DNA of 64,000 bases from assembly GCA_003116975.1 (NCBI GenBank), contig BGKB01000098.1, forward strand, positions 1-64,000. Reading direction: 5' to 3'. Under the pieces are notes generated by a model. It had not been told where the DNA came from and did no database searches. It saw nothing but the letters and a program-made list of their open reading frames with translations. Position 1 is the stretch's first letter. Each line of letters begins with the position of its first letter. Position numbers and translations under genes: made by a program. Positions 17,307 through 29,876 of this stretch are shown in pieces. This stretch comes from Aurantiochytrium sp. KH105 (taxonomy: Eukaryota > Sar > Bigyra > Thraustochytrida > Thraustochytriidae).

Positions 17307-19052
17307 ATGATGATGGCGAAGATGGTGGTCAGAATGACCGCCGCCCTCGTGGCACTCGCCCTCGTGCTCGCCTGCTGCGCCGCTCGCGCTGAGGCCAGGG
17401 CGGACGGCGGCCGCCGCGATGTGATGGCGTGCTGCGAACCATTAGGGACTGGCGCAGCGCCTTCATCGTGCGGGGCCGCCGGATATGGCTATAAATGGGT
17501 CCAGGAAGACACGAAGCAAAGGGACCGCCCGCTGCTGGCGCGCGGCAGCGCCAAGAGAAGAGACGCTGACGTGCAGGCCGGCGGCTTCGCGGCACTTGCC
17601 TGTATCATTGCCGTCGTAACTCTTTTGGGCGAAACACTTGTTTTTGCAGATATTCCGGACCAAACCTTGGTTCTCACTCGGATCGCGTCCGTGCTCGCTG
17701 TTTTGGGCTGTGCTTTTACGCAAATGCGCTGCACCAAGATGTTGGATTTGAGCCCTCTGGGATGGATGCGTGTGGCCAATGTCGCAAGCTTGATGCATTT
17801 ATGCTCGATGCTGAGCGCCGTATGTCTGGGAAGCAGCGCTGAAAGGCGAACAAAGGAAGTCGTCGAGTATTGTTTTGCCGTTATCATTACTTTTGCGCAA
17901 GAAAAGCTATTGTGGAAGCCTCTACAGAGCACGCTGATTCCACTTTTTGCAATGGGTGCAACCATTTTGCTACGTCGACGATTGCGGCTCGAAATGAGCG
18001 TCCTTTTGGTGACTGCAATGGCGCTCGCGACCTTGTCTTTGTTGATGCCGGCCTTTGACGACATGCAGATGGGCCCCGAGGCCAATTTTATGGCGCACAC
18101 AACTTCGCCGGATCAGAGACTTTGGGCTGCTTTGGCCTGGCCGCTCGTGGCACTTCCGGGCGTGGCTAGCATTTGTGCGGCGTGTCGTGGAAATAGACTT
18201 GCGAGCATTGCCTTTGGGATCCCATGCTTGGCAGCACTGAGTTCCATCCTCATGGCCCCCCAAATATTGCCCTTGTTTGCTCGAGACGCTGCAGGTGCTG
18301 GGAACATGGGTCGTTGGTGCTGCTTGCGTCCATTAGTTGAGAGCGGGAAGTGCAATTATGCAACGCGAGGCATGCGCTGGTTTCACCACTTTGAGCGAGG
18401 GACCACGGTGTGGTCGCCCGAGGTGCGCGCAATGACAATTATAACAGTTTTGACAAACTTGAGCGGAATCCCTGTCGCCCTTTCAACGTGGCGCAACGGG
18501 ACAGTGAGCCCATCTATCATCGCAATGGCTACAATCGTGTTTTCTACCCTGTACCATCTTGCAGACACGATCGACAACACAGTCTTGGGCATGACCGAGG
18601 GAAACTGGCATCGTCTGGACAATATCTTCGCAATCTTAAGCTTTGTATCGGTGCAGCTGTATGTGCTCGACGCAACGATCGACTCGCAGACGATGCAGCA
18701 GGTCCGCACGGGTTTTTTACTATTAACCGTTCTGCTACAAGAGATTGGGCCGTGGCGTCTGGAATGCACGTTGATCCCCGTGCTGGCGTCATCTGCTGTG
18801 CTTGCGATATACCTTTATAAGAATCAGCCCATACGTGCGTCATTGAGCCGTAATCCGGAGGGAGCCTTTAGCCGGGCGTTTGCTCTTCTCGGCCTTGGCG
18901 TGATGGGATTTGTCAAGGGCCTTGATGAAGATACAGACTGGCTGCGCATTGCACACGGCTGCTGGCACCTTTTCACGGGTTTAAGTTTTTACTACTTTGC
19001 CAAGGGTTTGCATCACGTTGTGGAGGAACATCAAGCCAAGCGACAGTTCTAA
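17307..19052 (+). CDS. CREST-superfamily membrane hydrolase-like protein with internal duplication
   Basis: 581 residues, with a signal peptide (about 1-28) and roughly 13-14 membrane helices. The C-terminal half carries the CREST metal-site pattern shared by alkaline ceramidases, PAQR receptors, Per1/PGAP3 and TMEM8/PGAP6: S413-x3-H417 (STLYH), D438 in RLDN, and H550-x3-H554 (IAHGCWH). Layout is closest to TMEM8/DUF3522 proteins. The N-terminal half is a diverged copy: W153/W434, QEK/QEI at 198/478 and TLIPL/TLIPV at 209/488 line up with a constant offset of about 280. In the first copy the catalytic Asp is Ala157 and the SxxxH motif is lost. So one active-looking and one degenerate module are fused. 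Lipid or GPI-anchor hydrolysis is inferred from the superfamily. Confidence 0.68.
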   Translation: MMMAKMVVRMTAALVALALVLACCAARAEARADGGRRDVMACCEPLGTGAAPSSCGAAGYGYKWVQEDTKQRDRPLLARGSAKRRDADVQAGGFAALACIIAVVTLLGETLVFADIPDQTLVLTRIASVLAVLGCAFTQMRCTKMLDLSPLGWMRVANVASLMHLCSMLSAVCLGSSAERRTKEVVEYCFAVIITFAQEKLLWKPLQSTLIPLFAMGATILLRRRLRLEMSVLLVTAMALATLSLLMPAFDDMQMGPEANFMAHTTSPDQRLWAALAWPLVALPGVASICAACRGNRLASIAFGIPCLAALSSILMAPQILPLFARDAAGAGNMGRWCCLRPLVESGKCNYATRGMRWFHHFERGTTVWSPEVRAMTIITVLTNLSGIPVALSTWRNGTVSPSIIAMATIVFSTLYHLADTIDNTVLGMTEGNWHRLDNIFAILSFVSVQLYVLDATIDSQTMQQVRTGFLLLTVLLQEIGPWRLECTLIPVLASSAVLAIYLYKNQPIRASLSRNPEGAFSRAFALLGLGVMGFVKGLDEDTDWLRIAHGCWHLFTGLSFYYFAKGLHHVVEEHQAKRQF

Positions 19053-19194: not shown

Positions 19195-20085
19195 CTACTG
19201 CGCTGAGCCCGCGTATGCAACACCTTGCTGACCTGGCGGACGCGCTTGCGCTGTGGATGATGATGAGGAGGAGGAAGAGGAGGAGGAGGAAGACGTCGCA
19301 GCAGCAGTGGAGTTTTTCCCTGAGGCTGCACTTGTCTTTGCCGCCTCGCTCTTGATCGAGCGCAGCTCAGTGACGAGCGCAGACATTTCAGAGAGCTCTT
19401 GGCAGGTGCGGTCGATTTCCTGAGAAACAAACTTTTGCGCCGCCACAAGAGACTTCATACATTCGGTCTCGGATACTGTTGTGAAACAGGGCCGGAGTTG
19501 CTCAGGCGAGACGTTTCGCGGCAACTTGTTGATGTCATGTTCAGAGAGTGTCTTGTAAAATGCCTCGGTTGGCTCGTGAAAGATAATTTCCTCGTAGCGC
19601 TCCTCAACGACGGGTTTCTTCTTCAGAGTAGCGACATTTGCTGCCGAGCTTCCGGCGGGATAGAGACGCAAAAAGTGAATCATGTCAAACGAGGTTTCGT
19701 CCTCATCCCGAAGCACGACCGTGATTTTGGCATCAAATTCGCCCCAGCCGGACTGTGTCACGACGTAGGGCGGCTTTTCGCACGTAACCACGGGGACCTG
19801 ACAACTTGGATGCAGCGTGAAGATGACGCGACGGATCATGTACGAGAGGTCCTCGTCATCGAGACCGCGAACGTATATGCTCCACTCGTGCGTGGCATCC
19901 TCCGTGCTGCGCTTGCCCAAAAAGAAGGCCACGGACCCGTACACGATGGGCCGTACCACGGTTTTGCCGTGCATGACAGGTCGCGCAGCTGCCGTGGCCA
20001 TTGTCGAGGGTGCAGAGGCAGGCGCGGTCTTGCCGGGCGCTGGCCCCGGCGCGGCCCCCGGCTCCCCCGCTCCACCGGCAGTCAT
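19195..20085 (-). CDS. YEATS4: YEATS-domain protein, GAS41/Yaf9-like
   Basis: 296 residues from ATG 20085; the frame beyond begins at a non-ATG codon. After a 45-residue Ala/Gly/Pro-rich leader the YEATS domain spans about 40-165. The acyl-lysine reader pocket is intact: LHPS gives the His and Ser, and SGWGEF gives the Trp and Phe of the aromatic cage. A helical segment (about 230-265) follows, as in GAS41/Yaf9/TAF14. The tail is a long poly-Ser run. GAS41/Yaf9 is a subunit of SWR1/NuA4 chromatin complexes that reads acetylated or crotonylated histone H3. Yaf9-type proteins are about 226 residues, so the extra length comes from low-complexity ends. Convergent with the CREST-like gene. Confidence 0.88.
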   Translation of the reverse strand: MTAGGAGEPGAAPGPAPGKTAPASAPSTMATAAARPVMHGKTVVRPIVYGSVAFFLGKRSTEDATHEWSIYVRGLDDEDLSYMIRRVIFTLHPSCQVPVVTCEKPPYVVTQSGWGEFDAKITVVLRDEDETSFDMIHFLRLYPAGSSAANVATLKKKPVVEERYEEIIFHEPTEAFYKTLSEHDINKLPRNVSPEQLRPCFTTVSETECMKSLVAAQKFVSQEIDRTCQELSEMSALVTELRSIKSEAAKTSAASGKNSTAAATSSSSSSSSSSSSSTAQARPPGQQGVAYAGSAQ

Positions 20086-20498
20086 CTTCTTGCGCGCTGC
20101 GGCCAGCAACTGATTTTTCAATTTTGGTTATGATTTTGACGGTGTTGTTGTTGGTGTGAGCGATCGATGGCAGCATTTTTTCTTCCGAAGCAAGCCAATT
20201 TAGCCTGAGCACGCACGCTCACCGCGCCAAAGGCGGCCCGTCTGGCCCGAGACTTGGCTCGATAAGCGTTTGATTTGCCACATGCCAATCGAATTTGTTA
20301 TTGTGGCAAGTGTCTCGAAATTCTGTTGGCCGTCATCTGTGAATCTTGCTCGTGACGTGACCACCGCACGCATAAACGGAAACCATCGGCAGACTATTTA
20401 TCGAGAAGGGAATCCGGAGTGGAGCGTAGAGTGACGATGATGTTTCGTAGCGCAAATCCGCTCTCTTTTGATAAAATCTCACATGAGTTATGTATGCG
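20086..20498. other. Intergenic spacer between two minus-strand genes
   Basis: 413 bases between the YEATS start and the end of the ubiquitin-TIR gene. AT-richer than the genes; presumably the YEATS promoter and the 3' end of the ubiquitin-TIR transcript. No gene seen. Confidence 0.5.
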
Positions 20499-22490
20499 CT
20501 AGCAAATCAGACATCCACTACGATCTTGTGCTGGCTGCCGGGTAATGCGCTGGGAAAGACGCGAGGCCGTAGAGGCTGCCGATGATCGCCGTGAAGGGCG
20601 CTTGCCTGCCAGAGCACCGGGGTTGGAGGCCGCAAAAAAGTCCTGGATATCGCGATTGATTTTGCGCACGCACATACCAAAGACGGCATCGTAGATGGGG
20701 AGTGCGTTGGACGATTTGACGCGGTCCAGGCCGTCAGGAAGGACGCTCATTTCGGCGCCAATGTCAACGTGCTCGCGAAAGACGGGAACAATGAGCATTT
20801 TGGGATTGGCGCACGCCAGGCGAAGCTCTTCAAGGCACCAATCGGTGACACCGTTGGCGTGGTTCCTGGCCATGAGCGTTGCAGACGAGAGTTCGGAGGC
20901 CGGAGCCACCCCGCCCGAAGGCGCCGCCGTAAAGAGAGGCATAAGTACGCGGGAGCGCTTGACAGCACGATCAAGTTGGGCTCGAAAGTTGCCCGCACCA
21001 AGACCGTGGTCATCGCTGACGTCGAGAAAGACAGTATAGCCGAATCGCTCGAGGTGCAAACGCAGACGATCCGCAAAGTCGAGCTGCGCACGGCGATACG
21101 AGATGAAAATGTCGTGGTCATACTTGTTGGAGTCCGGTAAATGAAGGGCAAAGTCCTGAGGAAGGACACGCTGGGATGTGCCCTCGTCACTCGAAGCCAT
21201 GTCGGGTGCAGGCGGAGCGTATTGCATGCCGGGCCGGACCGCTGACAGCGAGGGAGTCTGCAGGCCGCTCATGTAGGTCAAAAATTTGCGGAGATCTTTG
21301 ACAGAGTAGCTGGTCCCGGTGGAACCCTTAATAATACGCGCACCGGTCTGAGCCGCAAAGAAATCGTCTGGAGCGATTTCTGGCTTGGCGCTCTGGCCCT
21401 GAACGCCAACGGAGAAAAAGACGCGAGCTTGGGCGCCAGAGGGCAGCGTCAGGCAGGCTGTGATGATGTGGGAGCGCACAGCATCCTGCGTGATGCTGGT
21501 TACGGCAAAAGAGACCATCGACTTTGTTCCTGTCCAAAGCAGGAGATTTTCGGGCTCTGCGCACTGGAAATAGTTTTGGTCAAAGTCGAGGTGAACGGGA
21601 TAGCTCTGGTCGCGCTTGAGAAGGACAGGGCCGTGCATACCGACTTGGACGTTGCCGCCTGTGGGCCCGCTGGGGTCTATAGCGTCTGCAAAGGCCATCA
21701 ATGTGAGAATAAAGGTCTCTTGCGGGGCAACTGCCTGGGCGGGGCCGTAGGCGTTCAAATAGGCAATGTCGAGTTCATCTGCCGAGGAGATGCGAGCAAT
21801 GGTGTCTGGGACCGTGGGAGGCGCTTCGCCGCCGCGCAGACGCAGTACGAGAGAAGCGTCGACACTTGCTCCATTTTCGGAGACGAGTTGGTCATCAAGC
21901 ACTTGCTGGCCGGCAATGATGAGGCGCTGCTGATTGGGAGGGATGCCCTCACGATCAAAAATGCGTTCCTTGGCTTCACCCCAAGTTTCTCCTTGTAAAG
22001 TGTCGAGGTAGATAGTTTTGCCCGTCAGGGTCTTGACGGTCAAGGGGATGGTGGGCTGCGCCATTTTCTTTTTCATGGTTTTCTTGGTACGTGGTTTTCT
22101 TCTTGTTGTAGAGGCTGCTGCTGTAAATGCTGCTGCAAATGCTGCTGCTGCTGCTGGTTCGTTATCATCGAAGGCGAGAAGGTCTCCTTCAGCCCTTGCG
22201 AGTACATCGTCACCATTCTCGTCGTCTTGTTCTGCATCCTCTTCGTCGTCGGCAAGGATGAGACGAACTTCGAAGATGAAAGGAAAATCGAAGAGGTTGG
22301 CAAGAGTACCCTCGTCATCGGCCGTGAACTGCTTGCGCGAGGCAGACTTGCGAGTGCGCGCTTCGAGGGCAAGAATGTCTAGCCCAGGTACCTCTTCGTC
22401 GACGAGCTCAAGCACGTCGGCCACAGCAAGAGTGGGATCAACGTCGAGCGCGAGGATGATATCGCCGGGGATGTCGACCAGCAGCAACAT
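20499..22490 (-). CDS. Ubiquitin-TIR fusion protein with C-terminal CaaX box
   Basis: 663 residues from ATG 22490; the open frame upstream is Arg/Gly/Ser leader sequence. Domains in order: residues 1-79, an acidic beta-grasp-like region (possible second ubiquitin-like fold); 80-145, an acidic then Ala-rich then basic linker; 149-221, a clear ubiquitin domain (VKTLTGKTI, EGIPPNQQRLIIAG) ending LRLRGG; 225-420, a beta-rich region I do not recognise; about 455-615, a TIR domain with KYDHDIFISYRRAQ, box-2-like loop VSDDHGLGAG and plant-type WCLEEL, whose first Glu (554) sits where the NADase catalytic Glu lies. The last four residues are CLIC, a CaaX prenylation signal. Ubiquitin Lys6, 11 and 27 are kept; Lys29, 33, 48 and 63 are replaced. 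A membrane-anchored immune or stress signalling role is inferred. Confidence 0.85.
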   Translation of the reverse strand: MLLLVDIPGDIILALDVDPTLAVADVLELVDEEVPGLDILALEARTRKSASRKQFTADDEGTLANLFDFPFIFEVRLILADDEEDAEQDDENGDDVLARAEGDLLAFDDNEPAAAAAFAAAFTAAASTTRRKPRTKKTMKKKMAQPTIPLTVKTLTGKTIYLDTLQGETWGEAKERIFDREGIPPNQQRLIIAGQQVLDDQLVSENGASVDASLVLRLRGGEAPPTVPDTIARISSADELDIAYLNAYGPAQAVAPQETFILTLMAFADAIDPSGPTGGNVQVGMHGPVLLKRDQSYPVHLDFDQNYFQCAEPENLLLWTGTKSMVSFAVTSITQDAVRSHIITACLTLPSGAQARVFFSVGVQGQSAKPEIAPDDFFAAQTGARIIKGSTGTSYSVKDLRKFLTYMSGLQTPSLSAVRPGMQYAPPAPDMASSDEGTSQRVLPQDFALHLPDSNKYDHDIFISYRRAQLDFADRLRLHLERFGYTVFLDVSDDHGLGAGNFRAQLDRAVKRSRVLMPLFTAAPSGGVAPASELSSATLMARNHANGVTDWCLEELRLACANPKMLIVPVFREHVDIGAEMSVLPDGLDRVKSSNALPIYDAVFGMCVRKINRDIQDFFAASNPGALAGKRPSRRSSAASTASRLSQRITRQPAQDRSGCLIC

Positions 22491-26028: not shown

Positions 26029-26309
26029 CCTCGGCGCGGACGGACGCGCTGGGATCGTCGTCGATTGATTGAAGGCGAGGAGGAGGAAGCAGGCCCGCCT
26101 GAGAGAAAAGGAAAGGCAGAAGGAAGGAAGGAAGGAAGGAAGGACGCGGCGAACCAGCTAGCCAGCTTGCCACCTTCGCAGGCAGGCAGAGAGACAGACA
26201 GATCATACAGAGCCGCGCGGACGGGGAGACGCGCAAGCCGGCCTGCTGCTTGGAGCTAGCCTGCGAGCGAGCGGAGCGGCAGCAGCCGCGCAGACGAGAC
26301 AGGTCGCCA

Positions 26310-26651
26310 ATGGACCTGCCCGGCGTCGACGCCCGGCCCCAGATGCTGCCGGAGCTCAACGTGAGCAACATGCACGAGCTGTCGGCGCGCCTCGCAGCAG
26401 CGGTTGCCGCCGCCAAGCGCTCCGAGACGACCTACCCTGCGAGCGGCACCGCCAACGCCAACAGCAACAGCAGCAACAGCAACGATGATCCCGTTCCCGG
26501 CAATCTGCCTCGCGGTGGCGCGAGCCCAGATCCGGACAAGACCAACACCAGCAATGAGTTCAACATCGGCATGGACTGGCGGAGAGACATTGCGGCCTCC
26601 AGCACCCCGGAAATGCTCCTCAAGTCGCTTCGACAGCGTCTCGATCAGCAG

Positions 26652-26692
<41 letters not shown>

Positions 26693-29678
26693 ACAACAAC
26701 AACAACAGCAACGCGCAGGTGGACCGAGAGTGACCAATGCAGGCCTCTTTGAACTGGCGCAAGCGTCGCAGCAAGACCAACAACATCACCCGCAGCTCTT
26801 GCAGCAATTGCAACTACACCAACAGCAGCACCAGCGCCCGCGACTTTCGCTCTCGCTCGGTCCTGCTCTCGACATGAGCGCGCGCTCTTCGCCGTCCAAT
26901 TCGAGCACCTCGAGCACTTCGAGCATGAACGACGGAGGCGCCTCCCCCAGCGGAGCGCAGGCTTCTGCGCTGCGGCCCGGCAGCCCCATGGACGGCCTCG
27001 CCGAAACCGCAGTCGCTCTGGCCGGCTCACAGCAGTCCCCTTCGGATGCCCTCGGACGTCTCTCCATGTTTCCCAACTTTGCTCTTCTCGCAGGCGCCTC
27101 GACGGCGGCCTCACTCGCGTCATCGTCCAGCTCCATGATGTCTCCTAACCAAGGAATGTCCACGTCCACGCAATCAGATCGAAACGCGAATAATGCTGCA
27201 TCCGGACCCATGTTTTCTCTGAGCACATACTCGTCTGCCGAAAGCACAACATCAAGTGTGGCGAGCCACGCGCATCCTCAGCGCCAGCCTCTCCAGCACA
27301 ATGATAGCGCGGGAAGCAGCAACAACAATGCACAAAGCCTGGCCACAGTTGCCGCTGCGGCTGCTGCCGCCGCTGCCGCAGCCGCAGCTCGCTCATCTGT
27401 CCTCAACGACGCGGACGGTGATGTCGACATGGACGGCAGCGCGTCAATACAGCAAAACGACGTGCCATCCTCGGCCATGTCCACAAGCGGAGACGCCAAC
27501 ACGAGTGACGAGCCCGAGGTCGACGCTTCGGTACTTGTATCCACGCTAAGCCGGAACCAGAGCGCTCCCTCGGAATCCTTGCCCGAGCGCTCCTCGTCTG
27601 CTTCGCTCGCCACGCTCGAGACCTCAGCAAAACAAGGCGCCACGGGCGAAGTCCCGGCGGCCCAGCAGCCATCATCAGATATGGCTGTTGACGGAAAGGA
27701 ACATGAAGCAGCTCAAGGAGGAGGACTCAAGATGCAGCAGCAGCAGCTCAAGGTAGAGCAACAAGATGAACAAGTGCCCGTGCCTGCTGCGTCGCAGACC
27801 GCGGTTCCGCCCCCTGCCCCCCACAGTACCAGCACGAACAGTACGAGCACCAAGTCCTCGTCGGGCGGCAAGTCTCGGCAGTTCAGTGGCTTGTCCTCGT
27901 TTGTCTTGGGTTTAACGCCGGCCTCTCTTGCCAAAACGACCAGCCGCATGCTCGGCGGGGGGCGCCGCAAGTCGTCGGACCATGGCGCGGCTGCAGCAGC
28001 GGCTGCGGCGAATGCAGCACACGAGGCGGCCGCAACTGGGTCGCAGGACGGATCCGGGTCGTCGCTCACTTCCACGTCCGGAAACGGACAAGGCGCGGGG
28101 ACGGCGACCGGCGCGTCGGCACTCAAAGCATCACGCCGAAGTCGCAGTACTAATGCAAGTTCACGAAGGTGGACCGAGGAGGAGGACGAGCGTCTCCGGC
28201 TCGCAGTGGCCCAATTCGGAGACAAGAGCTGGAAAGAAATCGCCGCTGTCGTTGGCACGCGCAACAATGTACAATGTCTGCAACGCTGGCGCAAGTCCCT
28301 CAAGCCGGGGCTCAAGAAGGGACTCTGGCGGCCCGAAGAGGACGAGCTCCTGCGCCAAAAGGTCAAGGAAAAGCAAGAGGACCCCTCGCTCAATTGGACG
28401 TGGGTGTCCAAGTCCATCGAAGGGCGCAATGCCAAGCAATGCAGAGAGCGATGGCAAAACTTTCTTGACGACACCATCAAGCGTGGCAACTGGACCGAGG
28501 AAGAGGACCAAGAGCTCGAACGTCTCCATCGCGAGCTTGGCGGACGCTGGGCTAAAATTGCGCGCGCCATGCCTGGACGCACAGAAAACAGTGTCAAGGT
28601 GCGCTATCAGTCGCTCAAGCGTCTGCGCGAGCGCGAGTCCAATCCAGACGCCGACAATCTCTCGGTCACCACAAATGAGGACGACAATAGCAGCACCAGA
28701 TCGCAACGGACGGCTTCCACGACAAAGGCCAAGAAGAAGGGCGCCAAGCGACCGAGCGGTGTCCCTGCGGACATGGAAGGTATGGTGGGCGCGGCGCGCG
28801 CTGATCATTCTCCGGGTTGGAGCTTTGTCTCCAAGTTCAAGAAGCGCAAGTCCGCCTCCTTGCCCATGGCAGCAATGCAGCAGCAGCAGCAGCAGTCTGC
28901 AGCATCTAGCGGTGGCCAGGACCCCGTCTTTGGTCGGTCGACATCGTCTTCAAGTGTGTCAAGCACCGCGTCATCGTCTACAGGCTCGGTGGCGGCCTCT
29001 TCCTCCGACTCGCAGAGTCCCACACGCGGCAAGAGTTCCTCGCTGGCTTCGTCCGCTGCGACCATGCCTTTTCGTGAGCTCAAGAGAAAGATTGCCCGCA
29101 AGTCTGCCCCGCCTTCGCTGGTGAATGCCTTTCAGGCGATTACGCAGTCCCATATCTCCCCTTTTACTCACCAACGTTCGTTGGGAAATATGGCGCCGGG
29201 CTCTTTGTTTCCAGCTTCCTCGCCATCTTCGTTTTCCTCCGTTTCGCTCGCCTCCTCTACGGCAGCTTCGCCCCATCACCCGCAGCATGCTGTGCCGGAC
29301 CGGTCCATGCGTCCTTCATCGTCGCCTTCTTCTGCTTCCGCATCTGTGGGCGGCATGGGCATGCCCCAATTTGGCTCTCCCAATGCATCGCAGCAGCAGC
29401 AGCAGCAACAGCAGCAACATCACCAACAACAACACCGAGATGCTGCCGTAAGTGCGGCGCTCACGCTCGCTGCGGCTACTGCCGCGGCGACACCCACATC
29501 TCCTCTCGAGACCTCTGGCGCTCGTGAGTTTTCGGTGGGTTCTATTTCGACGGAGACGGCAGCACCGCCTTCCTCCTCCTCGTCGTCGTCATTGTCATCG
29601 CCTGGGCCCTTGCCGAGATCCCATTCGTTCCCGTCTATGCAGACGCTGACGCACTCGCTCGGCTACCTTGGCCCCCAA

Positions 29679-29728
<50 letters not shown>

Positions 29729-29839
29729 GTCTCAATCGGGCATGAGCAGCCCTGGGGCTAGCGCCGCATTTGGGTTTTCTGACGCCATGTCTCACCAGCC
29801 GCAGTCGGCTTCCTTTCAGTTCCTGCATCAACAACTCTT

Positions 29840-29873
<34 letters not shown>

Positions 29874-29876
29874 TAG
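26310..29876 (+). CDS. Three-repeat MYB transcription factor with polyglutamine tracts
   Basis: 1188 residues from ATG 26310 (an in-frame ATG at 26250 would add 20). The DNA-binding domain lies at about 618-777: R1 RRWTEEEDERL, R2 KGLWRPEEDELL, R3 RGNWTEEEDQEL, each followed by the usual recognition helix (QCLQRW, QCRERW, SVKVRY). R2 has a short insert (EKQEDPSLN), and the last core aromatic of R3 is Tyr instead of Trp. The rest is disordered and full of Gln, Ser and Ala runs encoded by CAG/CAA and GCN repeats, including a Gln run near 112-135 and one that ends the protein. Such 3R-MYBs bind YAACKG-type sites and often control cell-cycle genes. The homopolymers are likely length-polymorphic. 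Confidence 0.88.

Follow-up and report, generated by a model that had tools for sequence, protein, structure and literature searches.

A ubiquitin-like and a SARM1-like TIR domain joined in one protein-coding frame with a CaaX-type end in the thraustochytrid Aurantiochytrium sp. KH105

The window analyzed here, that is, the entire 64,000-nucleotide stretch taken from contig BGKB01000098.1 of Aurantiochytrium sp. KH105, contains a long open frame, the predicted parts of which are given in Table 1. The interval proposed for this gene in the sequence-only reading of the DNA stands, with a 663-codon frame found there, and only the strand has to be assigned differently: frame 1 of the plus strand of 20499-22490 is interrupted by stops, and the minus strand yields 663 residues followed by a stop. 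The neighboring genes in the window encode a YEATS-domain protein (19195-20121, minus strand), a DUF3522 protein (17307-19052, plus strand) and a Myb protein with long polyQ runs (26250-29876, plus strand).

Table 1. Parts of the coding frame, with positions in the window and the evidence for each
Feature	Position	Strand	Basis
Coding frame, 663 codons and stop (stop 20499-20501)	20499..22490	-	Translation, second copy, dN/dS; one exon as far as visible
N-terminal domain of no recognized family (residues 1-80)	22251..22490	-	No Pfam match; dN/dS 0.077
Linker, residues 81-146, acidic, then Ala-rich, then basic	22053..22250	-	Translation and alignment of the copies
Ubiquitin-like domain, residues 150-221, LRLRGG end (216-221)	21828..22043	-	PF00240, PDB ubiquitin chains, mapping on the organism's own ubiquitin
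Middle region of no recognized family (residues 222-455)	21126..21827	-	No Pfam match up to E 10
TIR domain, residues 456-612; FISYRR 462-467, GLGAG 496-500, WCLEEL 551-556	20655..21125	-	Pfam TIR_2, PDB profile search
C-terminal tail, residues 613-663; CLIC 660-663	20502..20654	-	Composition; CLIC in the second copy too

A Pfam search of the 663-residue protein, one of the checks proposed along with the sequence-only reading, detected two domains, each above its cut-off: ubiquitin (PF00240; residues 150-218, E 1.7e-11, 44.1 bits against a cut-off of 25.4) and TIR_2 (PF13676; residues 461-573, E 3.3e-10). With 41 bits against a cut-off of 28, the latter region belongs to the TIR family by the curated model. 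The same scan, at E up to 1, revealed nothing beyond these two domains. The four motifs that had been named at the outset, LRLRGG, FISYRR, WCLEEL and the C-terminal CLIC, are all located in the translated protein, and the Pfam matches together with the motif positions place the ubiquitin-like part, the TIR domain and the CaaX-type end in a single frame and in the claimed order.

Searching the genome (76 Mb, 367 contigs) for copies and relatives of this gene revealed a second copy (C367:106383-108362) that is 97% identical and collinear with the window across the approximately 9 kb compared. Paired matches of this kind are frequent in the genome, so that the two copies are probably haplotypes or homoeologues. 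Across 659 codons, the copies differ by 40 synonymous and 22 non-synonymous changes, which corresponds to a dN/dS of 0.17 (one-sided Fisher test, p 1.2e-11) in a test that compares two copies only, 97% alike. For the individual stretches, the dN/dS values, followed by the one-sided Fisher p values (given as ranges where half counts were rounded either way), are 0.077 for residues 1-80 (0.0003), 0.26 for the linker 81-146 (0.009-0.04), in which the copies also differ in length by a few residues, 0.10 for the ubiquitin part (0.0036) and 0.24 for residues 223-450 (0.0003-0.0013); the TIR domain contains no amino acid change in 157 codons (0.0033). The tail, residues 613-663, has a dN/dS of 0.19 and, taken alone, with three differences in all, does not reach significance (0.18), so that purifying selection is significant in five of the six stretches tested. 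In the alignment of the 200 bases that precede M1 in the two copies, there are indels with lengths not divisible by three; given that these indels break the frame, M1 is the likely start, and the frame is very probably translated from this position.

The alternative that the locus consists of two separate genes or is a frame artefact was rejected because both copies keep one frame, with selection evident on both sides of each domain junction. The same codon-level conservation makes a split into two mRNAs unlikely, in line with the original claim of a single protein. The comparison of the copies thus demonstrates one protein-coding frame under purifying selection, which runs from the N-terminal domain through the predicted ubiquitin-like domain and the middle region to the SARM1-like TIR domain and the CaaX-type end. 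As a separate observation, the portion that encodes the TIR domain and the tail (20502-21125) shows fewer synonymous differences from the C367 copy than the rest of the gene (6 of 156 sites vs 34 of 327; Fisher p 0.013), which may reflect gene conversion, extra constraint or chance.

Two parts of the protein have no recognizable relatives in the collections searched. Neither residues 1-142 nor the middle region has a Pfam match up to E 10; within the genome, residues 1-80 produce, apart from the second copy, only matches at E 0.24 or more, and a search with the middle region yields nothing but the two copies up to E 10. Residues 1-80 display a vaguely beta-grasp-like pattern, with similarity to ubiquitin that is not significant, and a second ubiquitin-like domain at this location was rejected (hhalign probability 0.3%; shuffle z 2.2; HMM rank 170 of 1001; no Pfam match). 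Homology of the middle region to the corresponding part of a paralogue, described below, was likewise considered and rejected: there are a few matching alignment positions, but the hhalign probability is 0.6% and the genome search found no paralogue match.

The ubiquitin-like part had been described as near-canonical, which turned out to be an overstatement: only 38 of 74 residues (51%) are identical to the organism's own ubiquitin, and there is a two-residue deletion near H68, a residue of the ubiquitin binding face. Thus, the near-identical sequence typical of ubiquitin is missing, and the C-terminal LRLRGG is present, exactly conserved in both copies. All the same, the closest relatives are ubiquitins, both in the PDB (among the best 60 of 346 matches) and in the same genome, where the ubiquitin genes with open frames are 47-53% identical to this domain. 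Mapping on the organism's own ubiquitin indicates that the equivalents of L8, I44, V70, R42 and R72 are retained along with the LRLRGG; R42 and R72 are contact residues for many deubiquitinases. Of the lysine positions, K29, K33, K48 and K63 are replaced (by R176, R180, Q195 and V210, respectively), and the equivalents of K6, K11 and K27 are present. The residue directly after the GG is Glu222.

The PF00240 search of the genome yielded 41 matches at E 0.01, with all 55 of 55 candidates scored, and this set was used to compare how 12 other Ubl-bearing loci end, represented by one copy each except for one seen in both copies; a further pair, C18/C73, which looks like SUMO with an intron before its tail, was left out. 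The RGG is absent from all 12 loci. Measured in the same way, identity to the organism's own ubiquitin is 54% for the domain analyzed here (38 of 70 aligned residues) vs 19-41% for the 12 loci. The PF00240 score, 48.8 bits in this comparison, is exceeded by several ordinary Ubl frames among the 12, which reach up to 76.9 bits. The GG tail is kept in the ubiquitin genes of this genome, in the ribosomal fusions and in one tandem-Ubl protein. Lack of a diglycine tail, a feature of integral Ubl domains, does not apply to this domain, which retains the tail; a retained GG in a long non-ribosomal protein is unusual in this genome and gives the strongest hint that the tail is important. Among the NCBIfam models, Rad23 gives a weak match (20.1 bits against a cut-off of 207.3). 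Two other Ubl-containing frames of the genome deserve a separate mention. The tandem-Ubl frame (C8:574000-575400, with a partner on C218) consists of 178 amino acids with two Ubl domains, the second of which is 50% identical to ubiquitin, and ends with LQLRGG followed by AATH and a stop, resembling a processed tandem modifier; at C187:7972-8154 and C4:501052-501234, the Ubl match lies within an open frame roughly 8,350 residues long.

The TIR part is most similar to SARM1. Compared alone with the PDB, it matches SARM1 at E 3.1e-5; with a three-row profile that includes the paralogue (hmmsearch), SARM1 is the nearest solved TIR by sequence (E 6.5e-11), the match spanning nearly the whole domain. 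The conserved glutamate at the W-C-x-x-E position is Glu555, which aligns with that of SARM1 and is kept in the paralogue; in SARM1, Glu642 is the catalytic residue. The sequence-only reading had singled out Glu554 instead, a choice that has to be revised: the paralogue carries Arg at 554 and Glu at 555, so that a control mutation at 554 would miss the relevant residue. Matches to prokaryotic defense models are weak, namely, PADLOC SAVED_TIR at E 2.4e-7 and NCBIfam ThcB4 (Thoeris type III) at E 6.8e-4, the latter with 18.6 bits against a cut-off of 220, which places the protein outside that family.

The genome contains at least 150 TIR_2 matches marked as above cut-off (150 of the 258 candidates were scored), in a search that also gives matches in 4 of 14 control genomes; with such an abundance, TIR shuffling forms the background to this gene. 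When the TIR_2 matches listed were compared by eye, by position, with the 41 ubiquitin matches, both were found in one frame only in the two copies of this gene. Among seven TIR frames chosen from 25 loci, some of them cut by the locus end, two combine COR-A with TIR, three combine ankyrin repeats with TIR, and two consist of TIR alone. A search of the genome with the whole protein yields, at E 1e-3, no further TIR matches except a pair of paralogous loci on C35 and C9, 38% identical, which suggests that the TIR of this gene stands apart from the large TIR families of the genome. The paralogue is an 806-residue open frame with long acidic and basic low-complexity stretches. The two proteins have in common, in addition to the 38% identity of the TIR domains, the IFISYRR and LFTAAPSG motifs and the equivalent of Glu555; what sets the paralogue apart is a scanned part devoid of any ubiquitin match and an end, ANAQ, that is not of the CaaX type. 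Independently of these families, the same genome harbors PfaA-like PUFA-synthase parts in separate frames (C72/C155 and C290/C61), one of which reaches 930 bits over model positions 6-1035 and another, on different contigs, 456 bits over positions 1759-2567; the 930-bit frame is below the family cut-off of 1010, and this search gives sub-cut-off matches in 11 of 14 control genomes. Such frames are compatible with a labyrinthulomycete or a similar protist bearing a PUFA synthase, short of proof.

The C-terminus is of the CaaX type (Cys-aliphatic-aliphatic-X), CLIC in both copies, and resembles that of yeast Ras1, which ends with CIIC. It is preceded by a basic tail, also common to both copies, with 8 K/R and 1 D/E among the last 35 residues. 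Prenyltransferase alpha-subunit frames, recognized by their repeats, are present in the genome. With the composition taken from three of the window's genes, this one among them, a CaaX-type end is expected by chance in about 4e-4 of proteins, that is, about 1 in 2,400.

Beyond this genome, relatives were sought in collections of prokaryotes and viruses. No confirmed relative was found in viral contigs, searched with the protein and with a four-row alignment, or in prokaryote genomes, searched with the alignment; because these scans start from few short peptide patterns, they may miss distant relatives. A DNA-pattern scan of genomes returned at least 118 stretches; of the 80 examined, 73 contain an IFISYRR frame, and these are bacterial TIR frames only. 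In a BLAST comparison, 9 of the 73 frames match the TIR part at E 1e-3 (best, 3e-7), and in none of them does the middle region find a match below E 0.1. In our searches of the open-access full-text literature, including the available portions of PMC6040629, PMC11354881, PMC10732462, PMC8195603 and PMC8605321, we found no ubiquitin-TIR protein named, which agrees with the original remark that no described protein with this order was known to its author; nor did we find in these searches a paper joining 'thraustochytrid' with 'TIR domain'. In choanoflagellates, the partners of TIR mentioned in the available part of PMC6040629 are Ank, Arm and SH2. The ubiquitin-like domain, the TIR domain and the CaaX-type end are each familiar, and it is their apparent order in one chain that we did not find described.

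The combination of these features is best accounted for, with a probability that we put at roughly 0.4, by a TIR enzyme tethered to a membrane and equipped with an in-line, non-degradable ubiquitin that serves ubiquitin-binding partners as a mark. The C-terminus would be prenylated after translation, with the preceding basic stretch helping, and the TIR domain would thereby be held on the membrane. The presence of CLIC and the basic tail in both copies, along with the prenyltransferase alpha-subunit frames, supports this step; the chance frequency of CaaX-type ends and the lack of significant selection on the tail alone weigh against it. The TIR domain itself would be an enzyme that consumes NAD or makes nucleotides and is active upon assembly of several copies, with Glu555 as the catalytic residue, as suggested by the conservation of this glutamate and of FISYRR in both the 38%-identical paralogue and SARM1. 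That the TIR domain is instead a non-catalytic scaffold for TIR-TIR assembly, with NAD not being the substrate, seems quite improbable: many TIR domains indeed are adaptors, as is generally known, but Glu555, FISYRR and the neighboring residues agree with SARM1 and the paralogue, and the domain shows no amino acid change between the copies.

In the proposed mechanism, the ubiquitin part would act as an in-line mono-ubiquitin mark that shows its I44-type face to ubiquitin-binding proteins, and ubiquitin-binding adaptors would gather the TIR at the membrane, or hold it back, during stress or infection. The retention of L8, I44, V70, R42, R72 and LRLRGG with the concomitant loss of K29, K33, K48 and K63, and an identity to the organism's own ubiquitin above that of the 12 other Ubl-bearing loci, are the features that favor this role. 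Because the K29 and K48 positions lack lysine, the ubiquitin part would not be made into the usual degradation signal of uncleaved fusions, and we infer that the loss of these two lysines would let the in-line ubiquitin persist; a mark for binding proteins rather than a degron is what leads to adaptors that gather or hold back the TIR. The available part of PMC8605321 describes yeast ubiquitin fusions without K29 as fully stable and a need of Ufd2 for K48. The same part of PMC8605321 reports K11 linkages on ubiquitin fusions and treats K6 and K11 as possible starting points, so that, with K6, K11 and K27 remaining, degradation stays conceivable. Against the mark, the PF00240 score is below those of several ordinary Ubl frames and, since H68 falls in the deletion, binding to ubiquitin receptors may be lost.

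A different role for the ubiquitin tail is possible, if rather doubtful: it might be a cutting site, where a deubiquitinase would cut after Gly221. This would take off residues 1-221 and release the middle region and the TIR as a membrane-bound fragment starting with Glu222. The N-terminal part would then be a removable cap keeping the TIR off, or else the new N-terminal Glu would make the fragment short-lived. Binding needs no LRLRGG, and the 12 other Ubl-bearing loci do without it, which favors cleavage over mere binding; indeed, the motif is exact in both copies, RGG is missing in those 12 loci, and the GG tail is otherwise kept in ubiquitin genes, ribosomal fusions and the tandem-Ubl protein. 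The residue that follows the GG is Glu, not Pro, which in this position blocks cleavage of ubiquitin, and the deubiquitinase contacts R42 and R72 are retained. However, 51% identity and the two-residue deletion near H68 may prevent recognition, and the agreement of the tails carries limited weight, the copies being closely related. On balance, the conserved LRLRGG tail would favor a cutting site, whereas the divergence and the deletion near H68 would weaken both this possibility and that of a ubiquitin mark.

An ordinary integral Ubl of the Rad23 type, docking to the proteasome or p97 and retaining the conserved tail as a remnant, is in our estimate a very doubtful description of the ubiquitin-like part. 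Such a role would be compatible with its position in a long protein, like that of other Ubl frames, with a Pfam score (48.8 bits) within the range of those frames and below several of them, and with the weak Rad23 match; it fits poorly with an identity to the organism's own ubiquitin of 54%, as opposed to 19-41% in the 12 others, and with an RGG that none of these keeps.

Returning to the membrane-tethered TIR enzyme with an in-line ubiquitin, one could tentatively, and with the odds clearly against it, envisage a ubiquitin-gated version in which the in-line ubiquitin, not a degron given the loss of K29 and K48, would be cleavable at LRLRGG, and deubiquitinases or ubiquitin receptors would switch the membrane-anchored, NAD-consuming TIR on or off. 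If correct, ubiquitin signaling and TIR immunity would be directly coupled in this single-celled eukaryote, whose TIR repertoire is very large. For the most part, TIR signaling and ubiquitin meet via separate proteins in animals and plants. The presence of both modules in one selected chain makes a direct ubiquitin-TIR link open to ordinary biochemistry, and the genome of this protist, with its 150 or more TIR matches, is a source of unexplored TIR architectures.

Comparison with known systems brings out both likenesses and differences. SARM1, the animal NAD-cleaving TIR enzyme, is the nearest solved TIR by profile and shares the Glu in DW-x-x-x-E, but SARM1 carries ARM and SAM domains, neither of which is detected in this protein (Pfam, E up to 1), and to our knowledge has no ubiquitin-like part. 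Bacterial TIR proteins (SAVED-TIR, Thoeris ThcB4 and the FISYRR frames) show weak similarity in the TIR domain, whereas the middle region is unmatched in the 73 frames and the ThcB4 match is far under the cut-off. The ubiquitin fusions, i.e., polyubiquitin and the ribosomal L40 and S27a fusions, likewise have an LRLRGG end with the next protein directly after it, but here the ubiquitin part is 51% identical rather than near-identical to ubiquitin, is preceded by an N-terminal extension and is joined to a non-ribosomal partner. The closest printed ideas that we found, in the available part of PMC8195603, are the TRADD-N/ubiquitin proteins and the TERNS3 systems. The TRADD-N conflict proteins of marine animals resemble the present case in that ubiquitin domains are among the variable partners of immune and cell-death proteins; they differ in that the partner is TRADD-N, in animals, and section 13 of that article, where they are treated, names no TIR-Ub order (PMC8195603). 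In the bacterial TERNS3 conflict systems, TIR is the most frequent partner, and a Ubl-conjugation set (E1, Ubl, E2) forms part of some of these systems, but TIR and Ubl are parts of one gene system joined via EAD1 domains (PMC8195603, available part), whereas the protein described here is predicted to be a single eukaryotic polypeptide that has both a ubiquitin-type tail and an end of the CaaX type.
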